Assembly: GCA_021818905.1 (NCBI GenBank) | Contig: JAKASS010000020.1 | Coordinates: 1 to 13,121, forward strand | Reading direction: 5' to 3' | Length of the DNA: 13,121 nucleotides | DNA from: Nanobdellota archaeon | GTDB taxonomy: Archaea > Nanobdellota > Nanobdellia > Parvarchaeales > Parvarchaeaceae | Shown: positions 1-11,542 of the stretch, piece after piece | Position numbering within the stretch: the first letter of the stretch is position 1 | Layout of the letters: every line of letters starts with the position of its first letter | Position numbers and translations under genes: made by a program | The notes under the pieces: model-generated | Databases searched by the model: none | What the model saw: the letters and a program-made list of their open reading frames with translations, nothing else | Told to the model about the DNA's origin: nothing

Positions 1-33
1 TGTCCTTCTTTTCCATGTCTATCACCTGGTTTG

Positions 34-63
34 AAGGATCTCCTCCACAAAGATCCTTTTTTT
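34..63 (+). terminator. Hairpin plus T-run, probable terminator
   Basis: AAGGATCT (34-41) and AGATCCTT (51-58) form a perfect 8-bp stem around a 9-base loop, followed directly by seven T (57-63). This looks like an intrinsic terminator for a plus-strand gene lying to the left of the window. One frame stays open from base 2 to a TGA at 32-34, which could be the last ten codons of that gene, but this is too short to support a gene call. Confidence 0.5.
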
Positions 64-108
64 AGCTTGTTAGAAGCCATATCCTTGTAGATACGGCTAT
101 TCTATTAA

Positions 109-127
109 TGAGTTATGCAACCGAATA
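109..127 (+). repeat. 19-base repeat, inverted partner at 10509-10527
   Basis: TGAGTTATGCAACCGAATA occurs here on the plus strand and again exactly on the minus strand at 10509-10527. In both places a frame through it reads E-L-C-N-R-I. A 19-base exact match is unlikely by chance in 13 kb. Here it lies in the 110 bases between the terminator-like hairpin and the first gene. Confidence 0.55.
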
Positions 128-141
128 ATAATCGGAGAAAG

Positions 142-150
142 TTATTTATA
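142..150 (+). promoter_or_regulatory. TATA box of the PRT-BtpA-HAD operon
   Basis: TTATTTATA is centred about 27 bases before the ATG at 173 and is preceded by a purine-rich CGGAGAAAG stretch resembling a BRE. No Shine-Dalgarno sequence precedes the ATG. The spacing fits a leaderless archaeal transcript starting at or next to the start codon. Confidence 0.55.
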
Positions 151-172
151 TCAGTTATAATCTAGAATTTGA

Positions 173-1102
173 ATGTCTTACAATGAAAATGGTTCTACTC
201 CCCATCGTTTGACCGAACTAGAAAAGATACTCAGGGAAGCCTCAAAAGACAAGGATCCGGCACGTTTAGCCGGGCGGGTCCTTGATATAACGCAGCTTTA
301 TTTTGATAAACTTTTACCGGACAAAAGCAGTTCCGATTATAAGCCAAAGCCGTCAGATAAGGAAACGATGGAAACATTGTTGTCGATAGGTGCGAAGCTG
401 ATACCAACAGTCACCAAGAAGAGGGACATGGATCTAAAAGGGATAAGACAAGGGTTACGAGACATTTCTAAAGGGCTGCTAACAAGAGATATTAACAGAG
501 GCCCAAATTCGAGATATTTGGATCAGATGTTGGGTGAGGATAAAGAACGGTTTGTCGAGGCATTCTACGCGACAGCAAAGAAAGCATTGAGCGGCGTAAA
601 GATAGATACGATAGTTTACATAGCTTCTGGTGGCCTGGAGCCGGCCTTGCTGATAAAAGATATAAAACCGAATGCGGAATTGGTGCCGCTGAGATACTCC
701 AATTACAAGAGAGGGGACTATACCCCAATGCCGCCGGGTTACATGACAGAATCAGACCTAAGCAAAAAGATCCATGGCAAGCGCGTAATAATCATTGATG
801 ATGACATAGATAGCGGTAGGTCAATGATCGTGACTTTGCAAAGAATATCCAAATTTAATCCATCCAAACTTTATTGCGGTGCGGTCATGGGTCTTAAGCC
901 AGAGGAATATATCTCCGTCTGGAGCGAATCAAAGAGGGATCTACTGTCATCCCACATTGAGACGCTGGCCAGTTCTGATACTGTAAAGTTTAATCTGGAT
1001 CATAAAAGTGATAGAAGGAGACCATATATTTACTCTGTAAAACAGGAATCGATACCTGCCGAGGCGGAGCTCGTAAACCCATGGGACGCAATAGAGGATT
1101 GA
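173..1102 (+). CDS. Phosphoribosyltransferase-domain protein
   Basis: A 309-aa cytosolic protein with the type I phosphoribosyltransferase PRPP-binding signature at residues 205-217 (VIIIDDDIDSGRS): a hydrophobic strand, acidic residues, then a small-residue turn that binds the PRPP ribose phosphate. A strand-loop at about 147-158 (VYIASGGLEPAL) fits the pyrophosphate loop of the same fold. The first 120 residues are mostly charged, probably helical, and carry no motif I recognise. This extension makes the protein longer than simple purine or pyrimidine PRTases (about 180-230 aa). The start has a TATA box at leaderless distance. The 3' end overlaps the BtpA-family gene by 22 bases, so the two are probably translationally coupled. 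The fold is clear; the acceptor base or sugar cannot be told. A regulatory role, as in some PRT-like proteins, is also possible. Confidence 0.8.
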   Translation: MSYNENGSTPHRLTELEKILREASKDKDPARLAGRVLDITQLYFDKLLPDKSSSDYKPKPSDKETMETLLSIGAKLIPTVTKKRDMDLKGIRQGLRDISKGLLTRDINRGPNSRYLDQMLGEDKERFVEAFYATAKKALSGVKIDTIVYIASGGLEPALLIKDIKPNAELVPLRYSNYKRGDYTPMPPGYMTESDLSKKIHGKRVIIIDDDIDSGRSMIVTLQRISKFNPSKLYCGAVMGLKPEEYISVWSESKRDLLSSHIETLASSDTVKFNLDHKSDRRRPYIYSVKQESIPAEAELVNPWDAIED

Positions 1103-1905
1103 CAAAGACCTTTGGCCAGGAAAAACCGATCATAGGCGCGCTTCATTTCTCGCCCCTCTTAGGATACAAAGGATTTAGGGACCTGAACGAGGTGCTAAAA
1201 AATGCCCTTCTAGATCTGAAGGCTCTCGAGATGGGAGGCGTAAACGGCGTGGTATTGGAAAATAATTACGACTTTCCGCATAGGATATTTGTAAATCCAG
1301 AGACCGTAGCTGCGATGACCTATCTCGGCGCAGAGATAAGAAAGCGCACAAATCTGCCACTCGGGGTAAGCGTACTTTGGAACGATTATAAGGCTTCTTT
1401 GTCGATCGCTAAAGTGATCGGCGGCGCCTTTGTCAGGATATCCTCATTTGTAGACGATATATCCACGGATTTTGGAGAGATACATCCAGATCCAGACGAG
1501 ATCGTCGCATATAGAAAATCCATAGGAGCGGAAAAAATCGCTTTGTTCTCAGATATACAAGTAAAGTACTCCAAAAATTTAAATGGGCAGCCAATCGAAC
1601 GATCCGCAATGGAAGCCGAGAAGAAATGCGCCGATGCCGTGATAGTGTCGGGCAAGGCGACAGGGGAGCCACCAGCCATAGAAAAACTTGTAAGCTGTAA
1701 AAATTCCGTCGGCATCCCGGTACTGATCGGCAGCGGGATGGATGCGAAGAACGCAGCCAGTCTTTTGAGATATGCCGATGGCGCGATAGTCGGTACTTAT
1801 TTTAAGGCCGGGAAAATATCAGGGAAAGAGCGAAACGCCAAACCGTATACTGCAAGAGTAGACGTATCAAAGGTCAAAAAACTCATGAGAACATTATCAG
1901 TATAA
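1081..1905 (+). CDS. BtpA/SgcQ-family TIM-barrel protein
   Basis: A 274-aa protein, the usual length for the BtpA family. Family landmarks are visible in order: a first strand and loop with His and Pro (GALHFSPLLG, 19-28), the block ALEMGGVNGVVLENNYDFP (48-66; family consensus is close to 'GvDgiivENfgD.PF'), a late phosphate-loop-like SGKATGEPP (190-198), and the terminal (beta/alpha)8 phosphate site with GSGM and DGAIVGTYFK (217-242). BtpA was named for photosystem I accumulation in cyanobacteria and SgcQ lies in an enterobacterial sugar operon. Archaeal members have no agreed reaction, although the barrel end looks built for a phosphorylated ligand. The start lies inside the end of the PRT gene. 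A HAD phosphatase follows 15 bases later, so PRPP or phospho-sugar metabolism is a reasonable guess, not a demonstration. Confidence 0.85.
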   Translation: MGRNRGLTKTFGQEKPIIGALHFSPLLGYKGFRDLNEVLKNALLDLKALEMGGVNGVVLENNYDFPHRIFVNPETVAAMTYLGAEIRKRTNLPLGVSVLWNDYKASLSIAKVIGGAFVRISSFVDDISTDFGEIHPDPDEIVAYRKSIGAEKIALFSDIQVKYSKNLNGQPIERSAMEAEKKCADAVIVSGKATGEPPAIEKLVSCKNSVGIPVLIGSGMDAKNAASLLRYADGAIVGTYFKAGKISGKERNAKPYTARVDVSKVKKLMRTLSV

Positions 1906-1920
1906 AAGACACAGCGACTT

Positions 1921-2562
1921 ATGATCGATACCATAATTTTTGATTTAGAAGGAGTCGTCGTAGATACTGAACCAATATGGGATAGAGCCCAAGAAGAACT
2001 TCTAAGACGTAGGGGCCTTGTCTACGATAGAGAGAAAGGAAAACATTTGATTACCGGCAGGTCACAAATCGAAGGGATGATCATAATGCAGGAGATATAT
2101 GGACTTAGCGGCGACCCAAAGGAGTTGACAGAGAAAAGAGCCGGCTTGGTAAGAGAGCTGTTTGAGAGCCAGCTGAATTTCATACCTGGGTTTCAAAGTT
2201 TTTATAAAGGAATCAGAGGAAGATACAGGACGTGCATCGCAACAGCCCTAGCCAAAGAACTATTAGAAGTGATCGATAAAAGACTGATGCTGTCAGAGCT
2301 GTTCGATGGAAAAATCTTTTCTATAGCAGATGTAGGGTACGTTTCCAAACCAAACCCGCACGCGTTCTTATACGCCGCAAAGAAGATGGATTCGCAACCC
2401 CAGGACTGCCTAGTGATAGAAGATGCCCCGAATGGAATAGAAGCAGCAAAGAGAGCTAATATGAGGTGCGTCGCTTTAACGACTTCGTTTAAAAGAGACA
2501 AATTAAGCGGCGCAGATTTTATTGTAGGCTCTTATCCGGAAATCGACTTATCGGCTTTTTAA
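1921..2562 (+). CDS. HAD-superfamily phosphatase, beta-phosphoglucomutase type
   Basis: A 213-aa intact HAD hydrolase with a helical cap. Motif I is FDLEGVVVDTEP (D8 nucleophile), motif II is the Thr at about 108 (CIAT), motif III is K143 (SKPNP) and motif IV is E167-D168 (VIEDAPNGIEAA). This matches phosphatases and mutases acting on small phosphorylated sugars or nucleotides. The second motif-I acid, usually Asp, is Glu here (D8-L-E10-G). The residue is still acidic, but the change may alter phosphatase versus mutase behaviour. The gene is last in the operon, 15 bases after the BtpA gene. Bases 2326-2562 belong to a direct repeat whose second copy (7694-7929) is a broken fragment. This copy has all motifs, so it is the functional one. 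Confidence 0.88.
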   Translation: MIDTIIFDLEGVVVDTEPIWDRAQEELLRRRGLVYDREKGKHLITGRSQIEGMIIMQEIYGLSGDPKELTEKRAGLVRELFESQLNFIPGFQSFYKGIRGRYRTCIATALAKELLEVIDKRLMLSELFDGKIFSIADVGYVSKPNPHAFLYAAKKMDSQPQDCLVIEDAPNGIEAAKRANMRCVALTTSFKRDKLSGADFIVGSYPEIDLSAF

Positions 2563-2628
2563 TATTTAAATGCCACTTCGTGGCATGCAAGTTCATCGAA
2601 TTTGCCCTTTCTTTCGGTAAAAGTTACA
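2326..2628 (+). repeat. Island-flanking direct repeat, left copy (303 bases)
   Basis: Matches 7694-7995 with two differences that I can find: three adjacent bases near the left edge (GTA at 2337-2339 against ATG) and one fewer C in the right copy (C-run 2426-2429 against 7794-7796). It contains codons from about 136 to the stop of the HAD gene plus the last part of a convergent minus-strand gene. The left flank (HAD gene start) is continuous here and the right flank is foreign. For the other copy the reverse holds. This is the signature of an insertion by recombination within the repeat. Confidence 0.92.
2559..2628 (-). pseudogene. 3' remnant of the 169-aa convergent gene
   Basis: On the minus strand this segment encodes the last 22 residues (VTFTERKGKF...VAFKY) and stop of the intact protein encoded at 7926-8435. 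To its right the reading frame meets unrelated sequence and soon a stop, so only a tail remains. It contains a small hairpin, TGCCAC-TTC-GTGGCA (2571-2585), that also follows the HAD stop codon and may help end HAD transcripts. It shows that the HAD gene and the 169-aa gene were neighbours before the island arrived. Confidence 0.8.
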
Positions 2629-2694
2629 CTTGTCCGTCTTCCTCACGCTTTCGGCTACGTATGCGACTCTCTTGCGATCCCATTCCAAGCCTAT
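2629..2694 (-). pseudogene. Possible coding remnant beside the island junction
   Basis: Immediately right of the repeat, one minus-strand frame is open for 22 codons with protein-like composition (IGLEWDRKRVAYVAES followed by VRKTDK). It is bounded upstream by an in-frame TAG (2695-2697) and downstream by the repeat junction, where the frame changes. No start codon is visible. I do not recognise the family. It may be a leftover of a gene cut by the integration, but a 66-base open frame could also arise by chance. Confidence 0.25.
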
Positions 2695-2710
2695 CTAAAA
2701 GACGCATAGT

Positions 2711-2745
2711 ATAGTATATAACATTTAAATAATCTAAGATACTAT
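2711..2745 (+). promoter_or_regulatory. Promoter with inverted repeat, first ATPase gene
   Basis: A TATA-like CATTTAAAT (2722-2730) is centred about 27 bases before the ATG at 2753. It is flanked by ATAGTAT (2711-2717; also at 2706-2712) and ATACTAT (2739-2745), a perfect 7-base inverted repeat that could be an operator. The 10-mer ATAGTATATA (2711-2720) recurs at 4234-4243 in the abiE promoter. Confidence 0.45.
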
Positions 2746-2752
2746 TGATAAT

Positions 2753-4027
2753 ATGGACTTGGAGCTTTTGAAAGTCACGATAGAGGAACAAAGAGAAAGG
2801 ATAGAAAAGTTGATGGAAAAAGAAAACATGATCGGGAGAGAGTTAAAAGTAAGCGAGTACATAAAATATCCGAACTCTTTGGTGATCTTGGGTGTAAGGA
2901 GGGCGGGTAAATCAGTGCTTTCTATACAGACGTTTTACAAGCAAAAATTCGCTTATATAAATTTTGACGATGAAAGACTTATAGATCTGGACACTTCCGA
3001 TCTTAATAAGATATTACAAATATTTTATGAGCTGTACGGGCCGTCTGTAGACAATCTTATTTTTGACGAAATACAGAACATACGAGGTTGGGAATTATTC
3101 ATAACCAGGCTCCGGGATACCAATAGAGTGATAGTCACCGGTTCAAATTCGAATCTTTTAGGGGGGGAATTAGCTACGCGCCTGACTGGCAGGCATATAG
3201 ACGTGACTCTTTTCCCGTTTAGTTTCAAGGAATTTTTAAGATATGAGAAATTTGAGATCAAGACCGTATTTACGACGAAAGAAAAGGCGCAGCTTATCGC
3301 CTTGCTTAGGGTCTATCTGAAGAACGGCGGGTTTCCAGAAAGCATAAGATCCGGCAAAGAGATAGTCGCTAGCATATATAGCGACATATTGACAAAGGAC
3401 ATCATAAACAGGCACAAGATAAAAAACAGAGAAGATCTGAGAAAGGTAGCGAGATATCTCGTTTCCAATTCAGCGAATGAATTCACTTTTAAATCGTTGA
3501 GGGGCGTAAGCGAGACAAATAGCTTGATAACCCTGTCTAACTGGGTCAGATACATGGAAGAGGCGTACCTTCTATTCAGATTAGAGAGGTTTTCATTTAA
3601 ATTAAGGCAGACTTTCAAAGCTCCGAAGAAGATATACTGCATCGATAATTCGATCATAAGCAGTATCGGCGTCAGACTTTCAGAAGATCTCAGCGGCTTG
3701 ATGGAAAACATGGTCGCAGTGGAATTATTCAGGAGGAAGAGCTATGACCGAAAATCGCAAGAAATATATTATTGGAAAGACCACCAACAGCATGAAGTCG
3801 ATTTCCTAATAAAGGAAAATTTTAAGATAAGCCGGATCATACAAGTAACGTATGCGTCTTCTAGAGAAGTCATAAAACCGAGGGAAATCAGCGATCTCAT
3901 CAAGGCCTCTAAAGAGCTCCACTGCAACGATCTCCTCGTCATAACATGGGACTACGAAGCCGAAGAAAAAGTCAAGGGAAAGAAGATAAGGTTCGTACCG
4001 TTGTGGAAATGGCTCCTTGACGTTTAA
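2753..4027 (+). CDS. AAA ATPase with DUF4143-type C-terminal domain (first copy)
   Basis: A 424-aa protein of the archaeal AAA_14 + DUF4143 family. Walker A is GVRRAGKS (47-54) and Walker B is LIFDE (102-106) in the typical 'FDEIQN..GWE' block. A sensor-like TGSNSNLL (129-136) follows, then the family block LATRLTGRHIDVTLFPFSF (140-158) with a likely arginine finger. After a winged-helix-like middle (about 215-300) the C-terminal part has EVDF (348-351) and IQVTY (363-367), which resembles a PD-(D/E)xK nuclease core but has Q-V-T where E-V-K would be expected, so nuclease activity is doubtful. The last 36 residues are nearly identical to those of the second ATPase at 6201-7496. Function in this family is not established. 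Its place next to a toxin-antitoxin pair suggests defence, plasmid or virus biology. No signal peptide or membrane segment is seen. Confidence 0.88.
   Translation: MDLELLKVTIEEQRERIEKLMEKENMIGRELKVSEYIKYPNSLVILGVRRAGKSVLSIQTFYKQKFAYINFDDERLIDLDTSDLNKILQIFYELYGPSVDNLIFDEIQNIRGWELFITRLRDTNRVIVTGSNSNLLGGELATRLTGRHIDVTLFPFSFKEFLRYEKFEIKTVFTTKEKAQLIALLRVYLKNGGFPESIRSGKEIVASIYSDILTKDIINRHKIKNREDLRKVARYLVSNSANEFTFKSLRGVSETNSLITLSNWVRYMEEAYLLFRLERFSFKLRQTFKAPKKIYCIDNSIISSIGVRLSEDLSGLMENMVAVELFRRKSYDRKSQEIYYWKDHQQHEVDFLIKENFKISRIIQVTYASSREVIKPREISDLIKASKELHCNDLLVITWDYEAEEKVKGKKIRFVPLWKWLLDV
3919..4027 (+). repeat. Shared 3' module of the two ATPase genes, copy 1
   Basis: These last 109 bases of the first ATPase gene align without gaps to 7388-7496 with five mismatches (about 95% identity). 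The rest of the two genes is far more divergent. The module encodes HCNDLLVITWDYEAEEKVKG and the following K-K-I-R-F-V-P-L-W-K-W-L-L. This copy ends in a perfect 14-base palindrome, GACGTTTAAACGTC (4019-4032), over the stop codon. The second copy lacks this palindrome. Confidence 0.9.
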
Positions 4028-4220
4028 ACGTCGGGATAAAGACGGCCGCACGATCATGATGGCGGCTATGCGTTGCAGAATAAAGATTTATCGAACTAGT
4101 TATGCGCACGCCTACAAGCAAATCAAACATGTTTATGCCCTCTTAGATCTAAAGATTGATAAACGTTTAGCTCTTTCCTCCTTTGGATCCATAAATGCAG
4201 GACGCTCGGGATCTTATTGT

Positions 4221-4254
4221 TTTATAAATATTAATAGTATATAAATCATATACT
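4221..4254 (+). promoter_or_regulatory. abiE promoter with palindromic operator candidate
   Basis: AT-rich TATA-like sequences lie at 4221-4230 (TTTATAAATA) and 4238-4246, 20-35 bases before the ATG at 4263. AGTATAT (4236-4242) and ATATACT (4248-4254) form a perfect 7-base inverted repeat with a 5-base spacer, overlapping the second TATA-like sequence. AbiEi antitoxins of characterised systems repress their own operon by binding inverted repeats at the promoter, so this is the natural operator candidate. The rest of the 235-base gap after the first ATPase shows no convincing gene. Confidence 0.5.
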
Positions 4255-4262
4255 TAACATAT

Positions 4263-5045
4263 ATGAAAAACAACTTATCCAAAACAGAACAAGAGATCTA
4301 TTTTAATCTGGGACAGGGCGAAATATACGATATTCTAACGATAAGCGGTCTGGTCCATTTAAAGAAAAGAACTTTGCTGGTCCTTTTAGCCAGGATGAAC
4401 AAGAAGGGGTGGATCACCAGGTTGAAAAAAGGGATTTATTTGGTGAATGCCCCGAACTTAAAAACGCTAAAAGACCCATTTTTAGCCGCCTTGAATACCT
4501 TCAATGGCTATCTTGGTTTTTCTTCGGCTTTGTATGTCTACGGTGCGATGGACGAATACCCATCTGCTATTTTTGTATGCACTCAAAGGACTTCCGCATC
4601 AAAAACACTGAATAAAACCATAGAGGTAAGGGCAGTAGCATTGGGCAAAAGAGCCACCGGGGCGGTCTCTTTTAAGGATTACTTTGTCTCATCAAAATCA
4701 AAGACGCTATATGATAGTTTTTATCTTCCACAGCACAGCGGGGGATATTCGAATATCCTGGCGGCGATTCCCAGGCTTGATTTAAGTGATGACGATTGGA
4801 AGACATTTTTGTTTTATGCCCAAAAATTCGGTAAAAGCGGTTTTTGCAGGAAGGTCGGTTTTTTACTCGAATTATTGAACCACGTATCAGATGGCGCCGT
4901 GCCGTCAGACGTATTGAAAGGATTGAATCTAGGAAAACAGCTAGTAAAACTTGGAAATGGTCGTCACGGGAAATTTATAAAGAAATGGCATATAATGGAC
5001 TATATCGAGGAGAAAGATTTAATGGGCAAGATATATCATGGATGA
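4263..5045 (+). CDS. abiEi: AbiEi-type antitoxin / transcriptional regulator
   Basis: A 260-aa protein with the AbiEi plan. Residues about 5-62 are an N-terminal winged helix ending in the wing RMNKKGWITRLKKGIYLV (44-61), where 'G-W-I-x-R-x-x-K-G-I-Y' is a hallmark of the family. A C-terminal domain follows, with GFSSALYVYG (85-94) and a further helical region. In studied AbiE systems this protein neutralises the AbiEii toxin without stable contact (type IV) and represses the operon through promoter inverted repeats; one sits at 4236-4254. The stop codon overlaps the start of the toxin gene by 8 bases, the usual translational coupling. Length is close to bacterial AbiEi. I am confident of the family because of the partner gene; activity is inferred. 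Confidence 0.85.
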   Translation: MKNNLSKTEQEIYFNLGQGEIYDILTISGLVHLKKRTLLVLLARMNKKGWITRLKKGIYLVNAPNLKTLKDPFLAALNTFNGYLGFSSALYVYGAMDEYPSAIFVCTQRTSASKTLNKTIEVRAVALGKRATGAVSFKDYFVSSKSKTLYDSFYLPQHSGGYSNILAAIPRLDLSDDDWKTFLFYAQKFGKSGFCRKVGFLLELLNHVSDGAVPSDVLKGLNLGKQLVKLGNGRHGKFIKKWHIMDYIEEKDLMGKIYHG

Positions 5046-5811
5046 ATCGATGTATACGATGTTGGCGAGTAGACATGGTTTATCGACCGATTTCGTCATA
5101 AAAGACCACTACCTTATGCGGCTTCTGCAATACATATCGATGTTTGCAAACAAAGACTTTATATTGACTGGCGGGACGGCTATAAACAAGGGTTATCTGA
5201 AAGAAAAAGCGAGATTCTCGGAAGATGCGGATTTTGAGTTGAGGCATAAGATAAAAATAAATGAATTGATCGGTCATTTAAATGAAGTAGCGACAAAAGC
5301 GAAGGACTTTTCTGGCACGGAAAAAAGGTTACTCAAGATATATTATCAAATTGACTTTAAATACCGGCTGCCCGGCTCCAATGGAGATAAAGTAAGACTA
5401 GACGTCGCATTCAATGAGATCGCGCCGGCATGGTCAAATACGAGCATCGAAGAGATTGTCTCCTCGTTTAGCGAGGAACGAGTGTATGGCCTAAATATTT
5501 ATAGTTTAGAAGAGCTATTGGCTAGAAAGTTATATGCAGTTTATAGACGGACGGAAGGGAAAGACATCTACGATCTATTTTACAGCTTAGGGTTAGTGGA
5601 AAGGAATAGATTTTATGATGCAAGCAGACGATTCTTTGATTATAAAAAATTGGACTTCAAAGAAGTCTTGCCTATGGTGGCTGACAAATTAAGAGCGATA
5701 AAACACGCCTACATAGCCCCGAGAGTAAACAATTATATCCCATTAAAATTAAGACCTAAGAATTGGGAGATAGTTTCTAATTCCATCGCGGATTACATAA
5801 ATAATTTTTGA
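5038..5811 (+). CDS. abiEii: AbiEii-type nucleotidyltransferase toxin
   Basis: A 257-aa DUF1814-type nucleotidyltransferase. Motif I is intact: TGGTAINKGYL (44-54) followed by RFSEDADFEL (59-68), giving the G-G...S-x-D-x-D metal-binding pattern. A further acidic strand is RLDVAF (120-125, D122), and the C-terminal signature is ARKLYAVYRRTEGKDIYDLF (162-181). All catalytic-type residues appear present. AbiEii-family toxins are NTP-dependent and stop growth by transferring nucleotides to an essential cell component; tRNA 3' ends are the target in characterised mycobacterial relatives. In bacteria the pair aborts phage infection, so here it could guard against archaeal viruses or stabilise the island. 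Translation is coupled to abiEi by an ATG inside its last codons. A structured, T-rich element follows directly. Confidence 0.88.
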   Translation: MDESMYTMLASRHGLSTDFVIKDHYLMRLLQYISMFANKDFILTGGTAINKGYLKEKARFSEDADFELRHKIKINELIGHLNEVATKAKDFSGTEKRLLKIYYQIDFKYRLPGSNGDKVRLDVAFNEIAPAWSNTSIEEIVSSFSEERVYGLNIYSLEELLARKLYAVYRRTEGKDIYDLFYSLGLVERNRFYDASRRFFDYKKLDFKEVLPMVADKLRAIKHAYIAPRVNNYIPLKLRPKNWEIVSNSIADYINNF

Positions 5812-5908
5812 TCCGGAGCGCTTAAGACCATAAAGTCCGTCATTCCTAGTCGGCATTTGAGCCGTCAAAGGACTGAAAAATAAAACACTGAAAGGACCGG
5901 ATGTTTTT
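5811..5908 (+). terminator. Nested stem-loop followed by T-run after abiEii
   Basis: Starting at the toxin stop codon, three nested complementary pairs can be drawn: ATCCGG (5811-5816) with CCGGAT (5897-5902), AGTCC (5834-5838) with GGACT (5870-5874), and CGGC (5851-5854) with GCCG (5861-5864). TTTTT (5904-5908) follows the outer stem. It could be an elaborate terminator or the 3' end of a small RNA; the long single-stranded joints make the outer stem uncertain. Confidence 0.4.
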
Positions 5909-6148
5909 AAGTGAAAACAAGCAAATCACGCTTGTGCACGACCCCATTAAATAAGCCTGGACCCGCCCGACTCGCTTCGGGCATCCTTCCCTGCTGTGCC
6001 CAGCCGATAAGTCGATGGCGGCCTTTTAATGGGAATGCAAACGATTACAGCGGCAACGGGAACGATGGCGCGCTACGAATGTGAACGGGGCCCCGCCTTA
6101 GCGTTTCTTTTCTACCGTGCGATCAGAAAGAAGGAAACAATTATAAAT
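5909..6148. other. Gene-free stretch with GC-rich structured DNA
   Basis: No gene with family support is seen between the toxin terminator and the second ATPase promoter. It is clearly richer in GC than its neighbours. CCCATTAAA (5943-5951) is complementary to TTTAATGGG (6025-6033), enclosing a hairpin GCCCGA-CTCGCT-TCGGGC (5965-5982). Further right, CGCTA (6071-6075) can pair with TAGCG (6099-6103) around the palindrome CGGGGCCCCG (6086-6095). A 44-codon frame with ATG at 6029 ends at 6163 and overlaps these structures; I see no reason to call it a gene. A structured non-coding RNA or the remains of a small mobile element are both possible. Confidence 0.4.
5943..6033 (+). ncRNA. Candidate structured RNA closed by a 9-bp stem
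   Basis: The perfect 9-bp closing helix 5943-5951/6025-6033 may continue inward with A5954-T6024 and G5955-C6023, then C5956-C5957 with G6021-G6020 past a bulged base. It encloses a 6-bp hairpin at 5965-5982 and a second arm where CTGG (5957-5960 area) could pair with CCAG (5999-6002 area). The GC content is well above that of the surrounding DNA, as expected for stable RNAs in a moderately AT-rich archaeon. It does not match tRNA, 5S, SRP or RNase P patterns known to me. The strand is undetermined; plus is chosen because flanking genes run that way. Confidence 0.3.
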
Positions 6149-6179
6149 TCTTTCCTTATTTAAAGGAAAGACTTAAATA
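6149..6179 (+). promoter_or_regulatory. Promoter with perfect 9-base inverted repeat, second ATPase
   Basis: TCTTTCCTT (6149-6157) and AAGGAAAGA (6163-6171) are perfect complements with a 5-base spacer. They sit directly upstream of a TATA-like TTAAATA (6173-6179) about 25 bases before the ATG at 6201. Related purine blocks occur at about 6126-6136 (GAAAGAAGGAA) and 6181-6187 (GGAAAGA). This looks like a repressor site overlapping the BRE/TATA region. Confidence 0.5.
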
Positions 6180-6200
6180 GCGGAAAGAAGCATATAAAAT

Positions 6201-7496
6201 ATGATAAGCAGAGAGACCTGGATATCCGTGATAAAGGACTTCGTAAGCGGAGAAGAGCCGGAGACGGTAAAAAGAGACATAAAAATAACTTTGGATATCC
6301 CGATAAGACGAGCGATAGCCATAATCGGCCCGAGAAGATGTGGTAAAACGTACTTGATGTACCAATTGATCCATGAGTTGGTCGTCGATAGAAAGGTGAA
6401 AAAAAGCAGGATGCTCTATGTAAACTTTGAGAACGACGTTTTAGTGGGGTGTACGACCGAAGATCTGAGGGACATGATGGGCATTTTCTATGAGATCTAT
6501 CCGGAAAACACGGAGGAAAAGACATACTTGTTTTTGGATGAGATACAAAACGTAGACGATTGGGAATCGTTTGCAAGGTCGTTGATCGATGCGGGAAATG
6601 TACAGCTAGCGATAGCGGGCTCGTCGGCAAAACTCTTGGCAAGGGAGATAGCCACAAGTCTGAGGGGAAGGACCCTCTCTTATTATGTGTACCCGTTCAG
6701 TTTTAACGAATTTCTTTCCATGAAAAAGATAGGCGTCGAACGTTACGTCTCGTCAAAGGAAAAGGCGGTAATAGTCCACGAATTAGACGATTATATGAAA
6801 AGTGGTTATCCCGAGGGCATACTTTTTAGAAATGGGCTGCAGGAGATACTTAAGGACATATTGAATGTCACGATATACAGGGATATAATCGAAAGATTCG
6901 GAGTAAAGAACCAAAAGCTTCTGAGACTGATGCTTAGGGCGTTTATATCATCGAAATATTTCTCCGTCAACAAGTTTTATAATTACGCCAAGTCTCTGGG
7001 GATCAAAACCAGCAAGGATTCGATCTACGCCTATTTAAATCATGTCACCGATAGCCTCTCCTTTTTTGTCCTTAAAAAATATTCTGGGTCTTATAAGGAA
7101 CCAGAGCGTACTTTGTCAAAGACTTATGTCGTTGACAACGGCTTTTTCTTATTGAATAATGTAAATGACATGGGCAGGCTTTTGGAGAACGTCGTCTTCG
7201 TAGAATTGTTAAGAAGAAGTTCGCCGGATCAAGACCTGTTTTATTTTGAAGAGGACAAAAAAGAGGTCGATTTTGTCGTATCGAATGGAACGAAGGTAGA
7301 GAAACTGATCCAAGTCGCATACGACCCGCGGGCGGAAGAAACGAAGAATAGAGAGACCCGTGCTCTGGGGTTCGCTTCCGATAGGGTCCATTGCAACGAT
7401 CTCCTCGTCATAACCTGGGACTACGAAGCCGAAGAAAAAGTCAAGGGAAAGAAGATAAGGTTCGTACCGTTGTGGAAATGGCTTCTTAACCTTTAA
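6201..7496 (+). CDS. AAA ATPase with DUF4143-type C-terminal domain (second copy)
   Basis: A 431-aa protein of the same architecture as the one at 2753-4027. Walker A is GPRRCGKT (43-50) and Walker B is LFLDE (110-114), again followed by IQN and a 'DDWE' block. The sensor-like element is AGSSAKLL (139-146). The block IATSLRGRTLSYYVYPFSF (150-168) carries the likely arginine finger. The C-terminal fold has EVDF (355-358) and IQVAYD (370-375), again with Q rather than E and no Lys, so a nuclease site looks degenerate. By eye the body is only distantly similar to the first ATPase, yet the last 36 residues are almost identical at DNA level as well. The two are therefore old paralogues sharing an exchanged or constrained tail. 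It is probably transcribed alone from the promoter at 6149-6179. Function is unknown; a defence or mobile-element role is inferred from the AbiE neighbours. Confidence 0.88.
   Translation: MISRETWISVIKDFVSGEEPETVKRDIKITLDIPIRRAIAIIGPRRCGKTYLMYQLIHELVVDRKVKKSRMLYVNFENDVLVGCTTEDLRDMMGIFYEIYPENTEEKTYLFLDEIQNVDDWESFARSLIDAGNVQLAIAGSSAKLLAREIATSLRGRTLSYYVYPFSFNEFLSMKKIGVERYVSSKEKAVIVHELDDYMKSGYPEGILFRNGLQEILKDILNVTIYRDIIERFGVKNQKLLRLMLRAFISSKYFSVNKFYNYAKSLGIKTSKDSIYAYLNHVTDSLSFFVLKKYSGSYKEPERTLSKTYVVDNGFFLLNNVNDMGRLLENVVFVELLRRSSPDQDLFYFEEDKKEVDFVVSNGTKVEKLIQVAYDPRAEETKNRETRALGFASDRVHCNDLLVITWDYEAEEKVKGKKIRFVPLWKWLLNL
7388..7496 (+). repeat. Shared 3' module of the two ATPase genes, copy 2
   Basis: Gapless match to 3919-4027 with five mismatches, three of them in the last 17 bases. 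An unbroken run of more than 65 identical bases lies in its middle. Synonymous sites are conserved, which protein-level selection alone does not explain; recent gene conversion or recombination between DUF4143 genes is the simplest reading. Confidence 0.9.
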
Positions 7497-7502
7497 ATTT
7501 AT

Positions 7503-7548
7503 CTGGACAAACATGCTTGTAACTGCTTTTCATGCTGATTTTGTCCAG
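7503..7548 (+). repeat. Inverted repeat after second ATPase gene
   Basis: CTGGACAAA (7503-7511) and TTTGTCCAG (7540-7548) are perfect 9-base complements separated by 28 bases that contain a direct repeat CATGCT (7513-7518 and 7531-7536). It lies 7 bases after the stop codon. It could act as an RNA hairpin that ends or protects the ATPase mRNA, or be a remnant of a mobile-element end. There is no T-run directly after it. Confidence 0.4.
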
Positions 7549-7611
7549 TAGGTCGTTTCTGCTAAGCTCCCCATATCACCCCCTATGATTTTGTGATACG
7601 GTTTTATATGT

Positions 7612-7703
7612 GTCGACAATTTAGATGTCATATGGAAATGCGTTCAAAAAATTTGTTTACTTACTTTGGGTATGGGGCGAATAAGTCGGCAGAGCAGATG
7701 TAG
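7612..7703 (+). pseudogene. 5' fragment of a second GGCT-like gene
   Basis: From the ATG at 7632 this reads MEMRSKNLFTYFGYGANKSA-EQM and then a TAG at 7701. It is nearly the N-terminus of the GGCT-like protein at 8479-8772. From CATATGG onward the DNA is about 91% identical (6 mismatches in 66 bases). The similarity reaches upstream to GTCGAC (7612 and 8457), and a TATA-like TTTTATATG (7602-7610) is still in place. Homology stops at 7694, where the HAD fragment begins, and the junction shares a G or GCAGATG-like microhomology. It is a truncated paralogue or orthologue brought by the island. Confidence 0.85.
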
Positions 7704-7929
7704 GATGCGTTTCCAAACCAAACCCGCACGCGTTCTTATACGCCGCAAAGAAGATGGATTCGCAACCCCAGGACTGCCTAGTGATAGAAGATGCCCGAAT
7801 GGAATAGAAGCAGCAAAGAGAGCTAATATGAGGTGCGTCGCTTTAACGACTTCGTTTAAAAGAGACAAATTAAGCGGCGCAGATTTTATTGTAGGCTCTT
7901 ATCCGGAAATCGACTTATCGGCTTTTTAA
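7694..7929 (+). pseudogene. Truncated, frameshifted copy of the HAD phosphatase gene
   Basis: This is the HAD part of the right repeat copy. It lacks motifs I and II and so cannot be active. One C is missing in the run at 7794-7796 (compared with 2426-2429), which shifts the frame just at motif IV; after that point the residues match the intact protein to the stop at 7927-7929. A plus-strand open frame from 7666 runs through it but its first half is out of frame and meaningless. Confidence 0.92.
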
Positions 7930-7995
7930 TATTTAAATGCCACTTCGTGGCATGCAAGTTCATCGAATTTGCCCTTTCTTTCGGTAAAAGTTACA
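7694..7995 (+). repeat. Island-flanking direct repeat, right copy (302 bases)
   Basis: Partner of 2326-2628. Here the right flank is continuous with the intact 169-aa gene (minus strand), while the left flank is the foreign GGCT-like fragment. Together with the left copy it brackets 5,065 bases (2629-7693). Confidence 0.92.
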
Positions 7996-8435
7996 AGCCT
8001 TAATTTTGTAAGCACTTCATCGTCTGATACATAGAACTCTACGAATTTGCCTATATCAGGGATAGGCCCCATGCCTTTTTGTCTTTCCACTTCTACTCTG
8101 TATAAGTTATCGTTTATCTTTGATATGTTATTTTTGTAGTTGGCGTATACCCATCTTGGGTCATGAAGAAGCAGGCTTCTAATCGTATCCTGCATTACCG
8201 GTATCTTCGCAGAAAGATCGTGGCGCCTGTTTTGTTCTATCAGGAATTCTACGGGATTATGATTATCGTCGAATATTACGAAATATTTTTCCTTGTTATC
8301 CGACTGCTGGAACGTTCTAGGTGTGTATGCGGTGTTAAAATCAGAAACGAACGCACCTTTACCGGCATAAATGTCAGCTTCGCCTATAACGGGTGCGTTT
8401 TCAAAATCCTCTATTATATCATCCAAGCCCTTCAT
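7926..8435 (-). CDS. Hypothetical 169-aa soluble protein
   Basis: I do not recognise the family. The protein is acidic to neutral and polar, with no signal peptide or membrane helix. It has a strand-rich middle (YFVIFDDNHNPVEFLIEQ, then KFVEFYVSDDEVLTKLRLVTF near the end) that suggests a small alpha/beta or beta-sheet fold. The ATG at 8435 has a TATA-like box on the minus strand (TATTTAAAT, 8465-8473) about 30-35 bases upstream, supporting this start. Its stop codon overlaps that of the HAD copy by two bases (7926-7928 against 7927-7929). It is divergent from the GGCT-like gene. The same gene's tail is left at 2559-2628, so it is an old resident of this locus. It is not in the minus-strand shadow of another real gene. 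Confidence 0.7.
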   Translation of the reverse strand: MKGLDDIIEDFENAPVIGEADIYAGKGAFVSDFNTAYTPRTFQQSDNKEKYFVIFDDNHNPVEFLIEQNRRHDLSAKIPVMQDTIRSLLLHDPRWVYANYKNNISKINDNLYRVEVERQKGMGPIPDIGKFVEFYVSDDEVLTKLRLVTFTERKGKFDELACHEVAFKY

Positions 8436-8441
8436 ATCACT

Positions 8442-8473
8442 TCCTATTATAGATGCGTCGACAGTATTTAAAT
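8442..8473. promoter_or_regulatory. Two face-to-face promoters in 43 bases
   Basis: The 43-base gap between the divergent starts at 8435 (minus) and 8479 (plus) holds two TATA-like boxes. CCTATTATA (8442-8450) lies about 32 bases before the plus-strand ATG. TATTTAAAT (8465-8473) lies about 33 bases before the minus-strand ATG. Each box thus lies near the other gene's start, so the two promoters probably exclude each other. GTCGAC (8457-8462) sits between them. Confidence 0.45.
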
Positions 8474-8478
8474 GTCAT

Positions 8479-8772
8479 ATGGAAGTGCAATCAAAAAATT
8501 TGTTTGCTTACTTTGGATATGGGGCGAATAAGTCGGCGGAGATGATAAATGCCATAACGGGGGAAAAGCCAAAAGGTTACAGTGCCGTACTCTATGGCTA
8601 TAAGCTTTGTATACAGTCATTAAAAGACATCCCGCCGAAACCGAGAAGCGTCCTTAGCTTCTGGGGGAAAGGGTTCCGCAGCTATATTATAGTAAAAGAA
8701 AATAATTCTAAAGTCAATGGCACCCTATGGTTTCTTTCGCAGGATGGACTGCGACACGCCGATAAGAAATAA
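8479..8772 (+). CDS. GGCT/AIG2-like protein, probably shortened
   Basis: A 97-aa protein beginning MEVQSKNLFAYFGYGANKSA. The strand plus 'Y-G-A-N' turn at 11-17 corresponds to the 'YF.YGSN' opening of the gamma-glutamylcyclotransferase / AIG2-like fold, and a later strand reads KVNGTLWFLS (78-87), like the family's 'v.G.ly.l'. Family members usually run to about 120-150 aa and continue with an acidic, often Asp-Glu-Gly, segment that is missing. After residue 90 the frame runs out in LRHADKK while another frame opens into a membrane protein, so the C-terminus was probably lost by frameshift or deletion. The catalytic Glu is not identifiable. The start is supported by conservation with the fragment at 7632. 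Activity is unlikely to be normal. Confidence 0.65.
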   Translation: MEVQSKNLFAYFGYGANKSAEMINAITGEKPKGYSAVLYGYKLCIQSLKDIPPKPRSVLSFWGKGFRSYIIVKENNSKVNGTLWFLSQDGLRHADKK

Positions 8773-9103
8773 CAAAGAGCAAAGTCTTTTTGCCAGCTTG
8801 GAAGACTCAGCCAAGACTTTGAGCATCAGCAAGCAGAAAGAGCTTTTCATCTTGACATCCAGGACGTCTAGAACGGAATGGAGTCTCGTCCTGTTCTTTT
8901 CTTTGTTCCTTCTTTCATTGGTTACATTTATGCAGCTCGGGACAAGCTACTTGGTCTCGGTATTAATAACCGCAGGCATGAACATATCAGTGCTTCTTCT
9001 CCCTATAGTGACATACCATATAGATTTCATGTCCGTAGAAGAGGAAGCCATCTCAAAAACACCTTACGCAGATACTATAGCAGTGGTAAATTCAGAGAAA
9101 TAA
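8744..9103 (+). CDS. Small two-helix membrane protein
   Basis: A 119-aa product from ATG 8744. A polar N-terminus with heptad-like SLEDSAKTLSISKQKEL (19-34) is followed by two hydrophobic segments (about 46-63 and 69-91) and a short acidic tail. I do not recognise a family. The start is uncertain: the frame is open to 8717 and overlaps the end of the GGCT-like gene in another frame. No TATA box is clear at leaderless distance. Because the upstream gene also looks cut at this point, this may be the 3' part of a longer membrane protein gene joined here by deletion. It ends 25 bases before the convergent glycosyltransferase stop. Confidence 0.55.
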   Translation: MDCDTPIRNNKEQSLFASLEDSAKTLSISKQKELFILTSRTSRTEWSLVLFFSLFLLSLVTFMQLGTSYLVSVLITAGMNISVLLLPIVTYHIDFMSVEEEAISKTPYADTIAVVNSEK

Positions 9104-9109
9104 ATAGGG

Positions 9110-9123
9110 GATCTAAGATCTTT
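9110..9123. terminator. Small palindrome between convergent genes
   Basis: GATCT-A-AGATC (9110-9120) followed by TTT lies in the 25-base gap between the membrane-protein stop (9103) and the glycosyltransferase stop (9129). The position fits shared termination, but the stem is short and the loop of one base would have to open. Confidence 0.25.
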
Positions 9124-9128
9124 GCCGC

Positions 9129-10208
9129 CTATCTTTTGTTATAAAATACTTCATCGTACACTTTTGCGATTTCCCGCATAACAACACCAGTTTCGCATTG
9201 CTTTGCGTCATTGTAAGCTTTTTTAACGTTTATTCTGTGCCATGCTCTGCTGTTTAATATGTCACGTAGATTATTCTCTCGCCACAGAACAGTATTTCTT
9301 TTCACTACATCTGGCAGCACCCCATCATAACACAAAACAGGTATCTGGCATGCCTTTGCTTTCATCGGCGGTATCCCGAATGGCTCTATCGAAGACGTTT
9401 GGAGATACACATCAAATGAGTCATAAGTCTCAGCAATAAGCGATTCATCTAGAAATCCGTAATATTTTATTCTTTTATCATCACGAATCACGTCCAAACG
9501 CGGAAAGTTTGCGCCATATATTCTAAGTTCCAAATCGTCATCTTTCACCTGCTTGAATATCTGTATGAATTTCTCTAATTTTGGTAGTTTATTTTGTCCA
9601 AAAGTGTTTATGTAACCTATAATCGTCTTATCCGTCCCTTCCCTTTTTGTATTATTATGAAACTTGTCTAAATTTATCGGATTATTTATAACTCTCAATT
9701 TTTCTGGTTCTATGCACAAAAGACCCTCAAGAACATTACTGACGATGTCGCTTACAGCTATTATTTTATCAAATTCTTTTAATCTCAGATAACTCTCAAA
9801 GAATCGTCTTTTAGCGGTTTTCAGATAGACTATGTTTTTTATTCCTTTCAAAGCTACCGGACTCAATAGCGCCACCGCATCATGGACCGTGACTATTTTC
9901 TTCCTCGGAAGCCCAAAAAACTTAGGGGGCATATCTCCTAAAGATAAAACATGAATGTTTTTATTTGTTATGTCCTTGCGATCAAAACCAAAATTGAAAT
10001 ATAGCCAATTGTTCACGGTATTCGTAAAACCCTTTCTCTTTAGCTTTGGGTTTAGTTTCAAGTATGCATTGGGCTGGATTCTTTTCTCTATATTATAATT
10101 AGTGAACTTCTCAAGATTATTGCCCACCTCAAAACAATAGTCAGATATCCCGCTGCCGACTTTTTGAAATCTAGCAGCAATAAGGACAACATTTTTTTCC
10201 TGAGGCAT
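9129..10208 (-). CDS. GT4-type glycosyltransferase with altered catalytic motif
   Basis: A 359-aa GT-B glycosyltransferase. The N-terminal Rossmann domain has a glycine turn (VGSGISDY, 17-24) and HDAVAL (109-114). The linker has DKIIAVSDIVSNVL (147-160) and LRVINNPINLDKF (171-183), typical of GT4. The donor domain begins at IIGYINTFGQNK (196-207) and contains SIEPFGIPPMKAKACQIPVL (273-292). In retaining GT4 enzymes this block is E-x7-E; here the first Glu is present (E275) but the second position is Lys (K283), so donor binding or activity may be changed. The ATG at 10208 is preferred because a TATA-like box sits 28 bases upstream; a TTG at 10229 is an in-frame alternative. The gene looks AT-richer than the operon at the left. 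A role in surface glycans or in glycosylating proteins such as the one at 11543 is plausible. Confidence 0.85.
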   Translation of the reverse strand: MPQEKNVVLIAARFQKVGSGISDYCFEVGNNLEKFTNYNIEKRIQPNAYLKLNPKLKRKGFTNTVNNWLYFNFGFDRKDITNKNIHVLSLGDMPPKFFGLPRKKIVTVHDAVALLSPVALKGIKNIVYLKTAKRRFFESYLRLKEFDKIIAVSDIVSNVLEGLLCIEPEKLRVINNPINLDKFHNNTKREGTDKTIIGYINTFGQNKLPKLEKFIQIFKQVKDDDLELRIYGANFPRLDVIRDDKRIKYYGFLDESLIAETYDSFDVYLQTSSIEPFGIPPMKAKACQIPVLCYDGVLPDVVKRNTVLWRENNLRDILNSRAWHRINVKKAYNDAKQCETGVVMREIAKVYDEVFYNKR

Positions 10209-10230
10209 ATTTCCTTTATTGGTCCCCAAC

Positions 10231-10245
10231 CTATTTAATATATTC
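10231..10245 (-). promoter_or_regulatory. TATA box of the glycosyltransferase gene
   Basis: Read on the minus strand this is GAATATATTAAATAG. Its A/T core is about 28 bases before the ATG at 10208, which decides for that start over the TTG at 10229, because the TTG would leave no room for a promoter. Confidence 0.5.
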
Positions 10246-10250
10246 TCGAG

Positions 10251-10409
10251 TTATTTAGTCGTTCAAAGCCGCTTTTTCCACATTAAGGAAAATCGGAAAA
10301 TTGCCGGGCATATAGATATGTATCAATGCATTTAAAGTTGCCCGGGCCGCGGCATAAAAAAATGCATGGTAAAAAATAAGCAGATGCGCCTAGGAAAATA
10401 TTAGCGCCA
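10251..10409. other. Non-coding stretch with inverted repeat and A-runs
   Basis: No gene is supported here. CCGGGCA (10304-10310) pairs with TGCCCGG (10339-10345), flanking a TATA-like CATTTAAAG (10329-10337). GCAT and ATGC (about 10352-10365) flank a run of seven A. These could be an orphan promoter with its operator or a minus-strand hairpin with T-run, i.e. a terminator for the small ORF at 10410-10550. Confidence 0.35.
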
Positions 10410-10550
10410 TCATAAAAATCGGCAGGCCGTGGCTGCGTGTACGTCTTCTTCGAGAATCTGCTTGAGAAGGGCGACAACGCCCTTCTCGCTATGCCCGATA
10501 CGATGGACTATTCGGTTGCATAACTCAGCGATGACCTTATAAATCATCAT
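10410..10550 (-). CDS. 46-aa ORF with a strong Shine-Dalgarno sequence
   Basis: Minus-strand ORF starting MMIYKVIAEL and ending in ATACRFL. It has an unusually good Shine-Dalgarno sequence, AAAGGAGGATCACT (10551-10564), with GGAGG six bases before the ATG; the other genes here look leaderless. This suggests a different origin or a position inside an operon. The IS6-like element begins three bases upstream of the SD, so any native promoter has been cut off. A second ATG directly follows the first. It contains the 19-base sequence shared with 109-127 (codons E-L-C-N-R-I) and a perfect 10-bp hairpin. No family is recognised. It may be the N-terminal stub of a longer gene or an RNA that happens to be open. 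Confidence 0.4.
   Translation of the reverse strand: MMIYKVIAELCNRIVHRIGHSEKGVVALLKQILEEDVHAATACRFL
10464..10487. repeat. Perfect 10-bp hairpin with 4-base loop
   Basis: GAGAAGGGCG (10464-10473), loop ACAA, and CGCCCTTCTC (10478-10487). It is the strongest simple hairpin in the window. It is not followed by a T-run on either strand, so it is not a standard terminator; it could be an RNA processing or regulatory structure. Confidence 0.75.
10509..10527 (-). repeat. Inverted partner of the 19-base repeat at 109-127
   Basis: Exact reverse complement of TGAGTTATGCAACCGAATA. It lies within the small ORF 10410-10550, 40 bases from the outer end of the insertion sequence. Confidence 0.55.
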
Positions 10551-10566
10551 AGTGATCCTCCTTTCT

Positions 10567-10589
10567 GGCACTGTTACCAAATACGGTTG
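10567..10589 (+). repeat. Left terminal inverted repeat of the IS
   Basis: 23 bases, beginning GGCACTGTT, matching the reverse complement of 11470-11492 at 22 positions. Confidence 0.88.
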
Positions 10590-10634
10590 GTGAATGTTAA
10601 TTACATCGGCTGCCATCTTTATTTAAGGTAAAAA

Positions 10635-11522
10635 ATGGAAAACCGATGTAATTATTGTAAAAGCAGCAGTGTGGATTTAAATGGCTTTAGAAAGACAAAA
10701 AGGAGGGGAAGCATACAGCGATACCGCTGTACGTCCTGCGGCAAGGCGTTCGTGGAAAACGGCGGTTTCAGGTGGAAACACCATGCGAAACGCACCATGA
10801 TCGGCAGCATCCACCTCCATCTGATAGGATCGTCGCTTAGGGACGCTGCAAAGTTCCTTTCCGTGTCCAGGTGGTTCGTGGAATACGGAAAGATGATCAT
10901 AGGATATGCAAAGGACATCAAGCCTTTCAGGACGGAAAGGCTTCATATGGACGAGATGTCCGTAAAGATGCGCGGGAAGTCCTTTTACGTATGGGCTTCC
11001 ATCTGCAGGGGAAGCAGGTTTGCCACGGCTTTTCTCGCTTCCGACAGGACGAAGAAGAACGCCAGACTGCTGATGAAGGAGTCCCCGCCAGCCATGAACA
11101 TCACCACGGACGGAGCCTTTGGATACGGATCCGTAATAAAAGACTTAAAAGGCTTGGGGTATCACCACGACCACTATCACCGCTGCGCTTCCTTCGAGGA
11201 CAAGAAGGACAATGATCCCATGGAAAGACGGGACGATCCCTATCGTGCCAATACCCATGAGCTTCGCGGGTTCAAGGAGCTTTACACTGGAGACTTGTTC
11301 GTAAGGTTGTGGACGTTCTACTATGACTTCATAAGGCCGCATTCTTCCCTCGGCAGGACCCCTGCCGAAGAAGCTGGGCTTGTAAGGTATCACGAAGACG
11401 ATGATCGGTTCGGACGGTGGGAACGATGGGTCGAGAGAGCTTCGCTCTCTTTTTATTTGGCTTATATATCAACCGTATTTAGTAACAGTGCCGTAACCAA
11501 AGGTCGTTTTAAACTTAAATAA
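10635..11522 (+). CDS. IS6-like DDE transposase with N-terminal zinc ribbon
   Basis: A 295-aa transposase. Residues 5-35 hold a zinc ribbon (C5-x2-C8 and C32-x2-C35, within 'YRCTSCGKAF'). A helix-turn-helix-like region (about 63-88) follows. The RNase H-like DDE core has D106 (RLHMDEM), D159 (NITTDGA) and a probable E197 (DPMERRDD), then TFYYDFIRPHSSLGRTPAEEAG (227-248), typical of archaeal IS6/IS240-type enzymes. It catalyses transposition by acting on the 23-base ends. The reading frame has no stop inside the element: it crosses the right inverted repeat and uses a TAA ten codons outside, so the last residues (VTKGRFKLK) come from host DNA. All catalytic residues seem present, so it may be active. 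It is preceded by a TATA-like TATTTAAGG only about 12 bases upstream, so the true promoter is unclear. Confidence 0.88.
   Translation: MENRCNYCKSSSVDLNGFRKTKRRGSIQRYRCTSCGKAFVENGGFRWKHHAKRTMIGSIHLHLIGSSLRDAAKFLSVSRWFVEYGKMIIGYAKDIKPFRTERLHMDEMSVKMRGKSFYVWASICRGSRFATAFLASDRTKKNARLLMKESPPAMNITTDGAFGYGSVIKDLKGLGYHHDHYHRCASFEDKKDNDPMERRDDPYRANTHELRGFKELYTGDLFVRLWTFYYDFIRPHSSLGRTPAEEAGLVRYHEDDDRFGRWERWVERASLSFYLAYISTVFSNSAVTKGRFKLK
11470..11492 (-). repeat. Right terminal inverted repeat of the IS
   Basis: Reverse complement of the left end with one difference; it lies inside the transposase reading frame. Confidence 0.88.
11514..11522 (+). promoter_or_regulatory. TATA box of the surface-protein gene
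   Basis: CTTAAATAA is centred about 25 bases before the ATG at 11543, consistent with a leaderless transcript. It overlaps the last codons of the transposase frame, and the IS ends only 21 bases further left, so the insertion sits just upstream of the core promoter and may have changed upstream control. Confidence 0.5.
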
Positions 11523-11542
11523 AGCCAACTACTCCATTAATC

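Follow-up and report, generated by a model that had tools for sequence, protein, structure and literature searches.

Results

A 13,121-nucleotide stretch of DNA from a Nanobdellota archaeon (GenBank assembly GCA_021818905.1, contig JAKASS010000020.1, positions 1 to 13,121; hereafter the window) carries an island of about 5.06 kb that is bracketed by a direct repeat of host gene ends and holds two ATPase genes and an AbiE toxin-antitoxin pair. We favour, with a probability of about one half, the view that the island arrived by homology-anchored, one-sided illegitimate recombination with the DNA of a relative, which left a merodiploid scar. Repeats of this kind also bracket other ATPase genes of the genus, and the duplicated piece at one of those loci, gatC, came most likely from another genome. 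The window is contig C16 of a genome of 944,665 bases in 25 contigs (G000), and 28 genomes of its genus were searchable.

In a BLASTN comparison, positions 2325-2628 and 7693-7995 formed a direct repeat (304 columns, 99.0% identity, E 1.8e-152) with a spacing of 5368 bases between the copies. The copies differ by two close substitutions beside the left edge (gggtacg/ggatgcg) and a 1-base deletion about 100 bases in (CCCC/CCC), and the final 200 bases or so are without any difference. The left copy (plus strand) consists of the 3' part of an intact HAD-family hydrolase gene (1921-2562, plus strand; Pfam PF00702, E 5e-20) and the last 22 or so codons of a convergent gene for a 169-aa protein. 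The right copy (plus strand) consists of a truncated HAD 3' part, frameshifted by the 1-base deletion, and the 3' end of an intact 169-aa gene (7926-8435, minus strand), of which the closest relative, G012, has a 75% orthologue. When positions 1-2628 are joined to 7996 onward, the HAD and 169-aa genes are both intact and face each other. The first-pass annotation had described a near-identical repeat that runs into an intact gene on either side and collapses to restore the convergent genes, with two ATPases and an AbiE pair between the copies, and all of this was confirmed by the alignment, the open reading frames (ORFs) and the Pfam and PADLOC matches. The locus has the one-sided homologous anchor of homology-facilitated illegitimate recombination (HFIR), namely the 302-base repeat with an intact HAD gene on one side, and it also has the repeat-bracketed cargo with contiguous outer flanks after collapse that belongs to Campbell-type integration. 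A third, partial copy of the repeat lies on another contig of the genome (C15:13177-13287, minus strand; 111 bases, 99%); it spans the HAD/169-aa junction and lies some 1.4 kb beyond an ATPase, immediately after a Fic-like gene's stop codon.

The inner flanks of the island had been regarded as foreign, which does not hold on the right side. There, 7602-7694 (plus strand) is an 87% copy of 8447-8541, that is, of the upstream region and start of a short GGCT-like ORF (8479-8772, plus strand), in register at an offset of 845-847 bases. The label GGCT-like rests on the motif YFGYGAN only, and no curated family scored above its cut-off. Weak similarity may extend this scrap to a 169-aa start codon near 7585, although it was matched by 30 of 500 shuffles and is not significant alone. 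On the left side (2629-2752, plus strand), 2629-2702 has no match, and the sequence from about 2703 is the upstream region of the first ATPase gene itself, which is conserved in front of the orthologous genes of G010, G014 and G011. Since the scrap is in register with the local locus, the remnants on both sides of the island derive from this same locus, and the offset matches the expectation for a second copy of the HAD-169-GGCT locus. The island therefore separates the 3' end of one 169-aa copy (2562-2628) from that copy's promoter side, with the HAD joint near 7693. This novel joint (7686-7700) connects the GGCT-like start to the HAD 3' part at a short, ambiguous, putative microhomology (AGCAGATG) that is common to both sides. 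The divergence of the repeat (3/304) differs from that of the scrap (12/95; Fisher p 4e-6); therefore one local duplication event fails to explain both, and it is unlikely that the 302-base repeat and the scrap share one age and source.

The proteins encoded in the island make it likely to be a block of candidate virus-defence genes. The first ATPase (2753-4027, plus strand) has an AAA_14-DUF4143 architecture (PF13173, E 2.6e-32; PF13635, E 3.4e-24) and matches the PADLOC model of the candidate defence protein PDC-S01 (E 7.9e-98). It is followed on the same strand by the AbiEi antitoxin (4263-5045; PADLOC, E 8.5e-37) and the AbiEii nucleotidyltransferase toxin (5038-5811; PF08843, E 5.4e-23; PADLOC, E 6e-27), whose overlapping ORFs stand side by side, as expected of an AbiE type IV toxin-antitoxin system. 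A fragment of a LamG-type surface-protein gene (6008-6101, plus strand), which reads WRPFNGNANDYSGNGNDG and matches LamG/pilin-like genes in relatives, lies upstream of the second ATPase (6201-7496, plus strand). The latter is also of AAA_14-DUF4143 type by Pfam, belongs to a different subfamily and matches PDC-S01 (E 4.1e-96); both ATPases cover nearly the full length of the PADLOC model. At 0.41, the island is intermediate in base composition between its flanks (0.445 and 0.389), and the genus relatives of the cargo differ from part to part: the first ATPase is 73-75% identical to proteins in G010, G014 and G011, and the AbiE pair is 68-70% identical to those in G007, G021 and G004. No recombinase, relaxase, integrase, replication or mobilisation gene was recognised in the island among its ORFs and their Pfam and PADLOC matches.

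The genome has 13 copies of the ATPases. The 3' ends of the two ATPase genes in the island (3918-4028 and 7387-7497, about 110 bases) are 95% identical, though the genes are otherwise dissimilar. On contig C15 (L062, 10225-10346 and 11647-11817), a different ATPase has flanks that resemble those of the second ATPase, with 87% identity on the 5' side and 89% on the 3' side. The pattern suggests that ATPase bodies have been swapped between conserved arms.

Neither an empty nor an island-bearing version of this locus was found in any relative among the genomes searched. G012 retains the 169-aa gene and the neighbouring glycosyltransferase gene and is without the HAD gene, the GGCT-like gene and the island. 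The best-scoring HAD match in relatives was 30%, BtpA was present in 3 of the 28 genomes, with at most 40% in the two others, and one other genome had the GGCT-like protein, at 38%; a search of the 169-aa protein against the genome contig collection gave no match. The first-pass annotation had proposed a search for the island as a plasmid or virus. Neither 72,556 plasmids nor 50,697 phage records contained matching DNA, and the island's proteins had no match in IMG/VR. The plasmid, phage and viral searches returned distant ATPases only, all below 60% identity, the best among the matches listed being 26-35%. The Rfam and tRNA scans were empty, so there is no attachment site of tRNA type. In G012 (L066, G012:C55, 3285-4584) only 29 bases separate the 169-aa gene from a GT2 gene that faces it, and in G000 this GT2 gene lies on contig C19 (L065, 7282-9516) beside an ATPase. 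The junction was therefore broken by a rearrangement, and there are ATPases at both ends.

Bracketing of ATPases by repeats is not confined to the window. We compared 47 ATPase regions of the genus with 39 control regions, centred mainly on HAD-like and 169-aa-like genes and not randomly chosen, and scored direct repeats of at least 60 bases that were not ATPase sequence. In a first pass, 12 of 44 ATPases were bracketed, compared with 1 of 138 control genes (p 1e-7). After clustering at 90% identity and with 5 kb of extra sequence, the counts were 17/41 ATPase clusters and 3/138 controls (p 4e-10), and removal of repeats of pilin-like genes from the same 5-kb test left 9/40 and 3/138 (p 9e-5). 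Within 3 kb, again with pilins dropped, 6 of 40 clusters were bracketed as against 1 of 138 controls (p 6e-4). The window contributes two of the nine cases at 5 kb, so the 3-kb figure, from which it is excluded, is the independent test. One of the nine (C24) is flanked by 967-base copies of an apparent multicopy element and not by host gene ends.

The other non-pilin cases involve the 3' end of cysS in G001/G003 (156 bases, 96%) and in G041 (106 bases, 92%), where the ATPases are of a different type; gatC and the start of gatA in G000:C7 (424 bases, 76%), whose array also repeats an ABC permease 3' end (99 bases, 72%); and intergenic sequence in G015 and G038 (two repeats). For cysS, the permease and the window, the order is the duplicated gene first, then the ATPase on the same strand, then the truncated copy of the gene. 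Repeat lengths range from 70 to 424 bases, and repeats at different host genes have no sequence in common, which speaks against the action of a site-specific recombinase. Across the genus the 3' side of cysS varies (L151, L153, L189, L231-L241), and in two separate lineages it carries ATPases together with duplicated cysS ends. Tandem arrays of pilin-like genes, with a QSALEYMMTYGWAI start and a LamG-like YSGN end, are interleaved with ATPases at L074/L158 (G004:C3), L075 (G004:C21), L162 and L170, and ATPase 3'-end remnants precede many of these pilin genes.

The gatC and cysS cases bear on the origin of the incoming DNA. In G012 the ABC permease gene is immediately followed by gatC, and this empty site is occupied in G000 by three ATPases and a second gatC. 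The extra gatC differs from the native one by 16, 9 and 43 changes at codon positions 1, 2 and 3 (third-position excess, p 4e-7), and the 49-codon truncated gatA differs from native gatA by 5, 6 and 22 (p 9e-5). The native, extra and G012 versions of gatC are about equally distant (75-76%), and the duplicated gatA piece has diverged from its native counterpart (76%) roughly as much as G012 has. A third-position bias is not expected to arise in place in a truncated gatA with a stop codon, and the piece therefore evolved inside a complete gatA. On these codon patterns, the gatC/gatA piece was probably acquired from a relative and not duplicated locally, its source being most likely another genome. 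In G001, about 135 bases of the two cysS ends are near identical, and the differences in the final codons are all synonymous (AAG/AAA, CTA/TTG, TGA/TAA), as would be expected if two functional alleles, donor and recipient, had met.

An IS-like transposase gene of the window (10557-11522) has IS6/IS1-like matches below the NCBIfam cut-offs and eight more near full-length copies in the genome, at 90-94%. A composite transposon was rejected as an explanation of the island, since the repeat consists of HAD and 169-aa gene ends and the insertion sequence (10557-11492) lies outside. Short dispersed repeats at 10420-10508, with more than 15 copies, and at 1-127, inside which the contig starts, are probably MITE-like or ends of insertion sequences. 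A second AbiE pair, on contig C15 (L062), is bracketed by a 134-base direct repeat (898-1031 and 4048-4181, 98.5% identical); this repeat is dispersed through the genome, and the pair was not counted as a second case.

Discussion

The arrangement in the window is consistent with the following sequence of events. A related strain would have carried the cargo in its own copy of the HAD/169-aa/GGCT locus, and its DNA would have entered the recipient. One end of this DNA would have been placed by homology in the HAD/169-aa 3' region, and the other end, inside the donor's GGCT-like start, would have been joined by microhomology to the HAD gene 302 bases upstream of the anchor. The fragment probably bridged two copies of the recipient chromosome. 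The result would be a duplication of 302 bases of the recipient, with the native genes intact and a divergent donor scrap at the right edge. With such a bridge, both 302-base copies would be recipient-derived and hence identical, and the GGCT-like scrap would be donor-derived and hence divergent. The donor, the anchor side, the linear form of the DNA and the bridge between chromosomes are what we infer here; that the incoming DNA was from another genome is suggested by the 87% scrap. A linear fragment of a relative's locus would also account for the divergent copy of the local 169-aa/GGCT promoter at the right end of the island. The near identity of the repeat bears out the earlier suggestion of a recent event.

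Several points weigh against recombination with a relative's DNA or limit the case for it. Among the genomes searched there is no strain with an empty or a donor version of the exact locus. The contrast of 87% and 99% needs 302 bases that are recipient-derived on both sides or were later converted. The gatC case gives donor DNA but not the same duplication of the recipient, and the bracketing test is one of association and not of cause, so that the ATPases may merely occupy insertion-tolerant sites. HFIR in these archaea is read from scars in the sequence of an uncultured organism.

Campbell-type integration, in which a circle bearing the cargo together with 302 bases captured from this locus entered by a single homologous crossover, was the explanation first proposed. 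It gives exactly the observed order of repeat, cargo and repeat, makes the joint between the GGCT-like scrap and HAD the closure point of the circle, and is in keeping with a recent event. The topology therefore stands, but nothing speaks positively for the circle itself: the cargo has no recognised replication, integration or mobilisation gene and no relative among plasmids, phages or IMG/VR proteins. Moreover, a circle from the lineage of the 87% scrap should carry 302 equally divergent bases, yet these are 99% identical. We consider such an integration unlikely.

A tandem duplication of the local HAD-169-GGCT segment of about 848 bases, after which the cargo took the place of the spare 169-aa copy, is somewhat less probable still. 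The left remnant (the 169-aa 3' end) and the right remnant (the GGCT-like start and perhaps the 169-aa start) are in register with one 847-base duplication, but the difference in divergence requires an added gene conversion confined to the 302 bases, and the gatC duplicate is demonstrably not local.

We regard two further explanations as very improbable. The assembly may have mis-phased an intact HAD-169 locus and a separate or co-existing circle of 5.37 kb, or a mixture of strains. Contig C15 begins with exactly the last 127 bases of C23, which is typical of short-read assembly at k=127, and the identical run of about 200 bases in the repeat is longer than this, so that phasing there relied on read pairs. 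However, the joint at the GGCT-like scrap is unique sequence that an assembler is unlikely to invent, the two repeat copies differ, and similar scars occur in other contigs and species. Equally doubtful is self-mobilisation of the ATPase genes, in a homing-like manner, with insertion creating long target duplications. The strong association of the ATPases with bracketing repeats, their 13 copies in the genome and their conserved ends around differing bodies would fit, but there is no common target motif, the repeats vary in length from 70 to 424 bases, at gatC the scar consists of donor DNA and is not a target duplication, and profile searches found no recombinase or endonuclease family. A site-specific integrative element is rejected, as the island has no recombinase and the repeats of the different cases share no sequence.

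Across the genus, the data suggest that such defence genes often arrive on the DNA of close relatives and leave duplicated gene scraps. It is a tentative extension that a general route of gene acquisition, by one-sided homologous capture of DNA from relatives, takes up ATPases of the PDC-S01 type by preference, builds defence arrays beside housekeeping genes and leaves donor scraps; the ATPases or their conserved 3' ends might possibly promote recombination. Little is known of how host-dependent archaea with tiny genomes and few CRISPR systems acquire defence genes. The insertion scars here allow both dating and tracing, and the scrap of a neighbouring gene in each makes donors, order of arrival and mechanism readable from comparison of strains. 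Our data also place PDC-S01, a very common unvalidated defence candidate, at strongly recombining sites.

Both ATPases match the PADLOC PDC-S01 models end to end. PDC-S01 is described as fourth in frequency among the defence systems of prokaryotes and as more abundant in Archaea than in Bacteria; AbiE and several PDCs are enriched in DPANN archaea, and experimental validation is pending for most PDCs, including PDC-S01 (PMC12988326). An association of PDC-S01 with repeats of gene fragments did not turn up in the literature searched. In archaeal integrative elements at tRNA genes (PMC4158269), direct repeats also flank the cargo and the target gene remains intact, but in the window there is no integrase, tRNA or common attachment sequence, and the repeats are far longer than a core site.

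HFIR has been described in competent bacteria and in E. coli conjugation (PMC3240628) and has been proposed for type VI secretion system (T6SS) arrays (PMC5361080), and together with transformation merodiploids it yields products of this kind in bacteria (PMC3240628, PMC5361080, PMC3784515). The island resembles its products in having homology on one side and a possible microhomology on the other, with non-homologous genes gained and the neighbouring gene intact; the difference is that here the process is read from scars in an uncultured archaeon. In Streptococcus pneumoniae merodiploids, a fragment bridging two chromosome copies has been demonstrated (PMC3784515). The donor bridges the copies and the recipient segment between the contact points is duplicated, as we propose for the window, but those duplications span 100-900 kb between existing repeats, whereas the ones here are of 70-424 bases with a non-homologous joint. 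The effector-immunity arrays of the Vibrio cholerae T6SS (PMC5361080) are similar in the serial insertion of competition or defence genes by conserved anchors, which leaves fragments and arrays. In the archaeal genus the cargo consists of PDC-S01 ATPases and AbiE, and the scars derive from unrelated host genes nearby in addition to ATPase ends.

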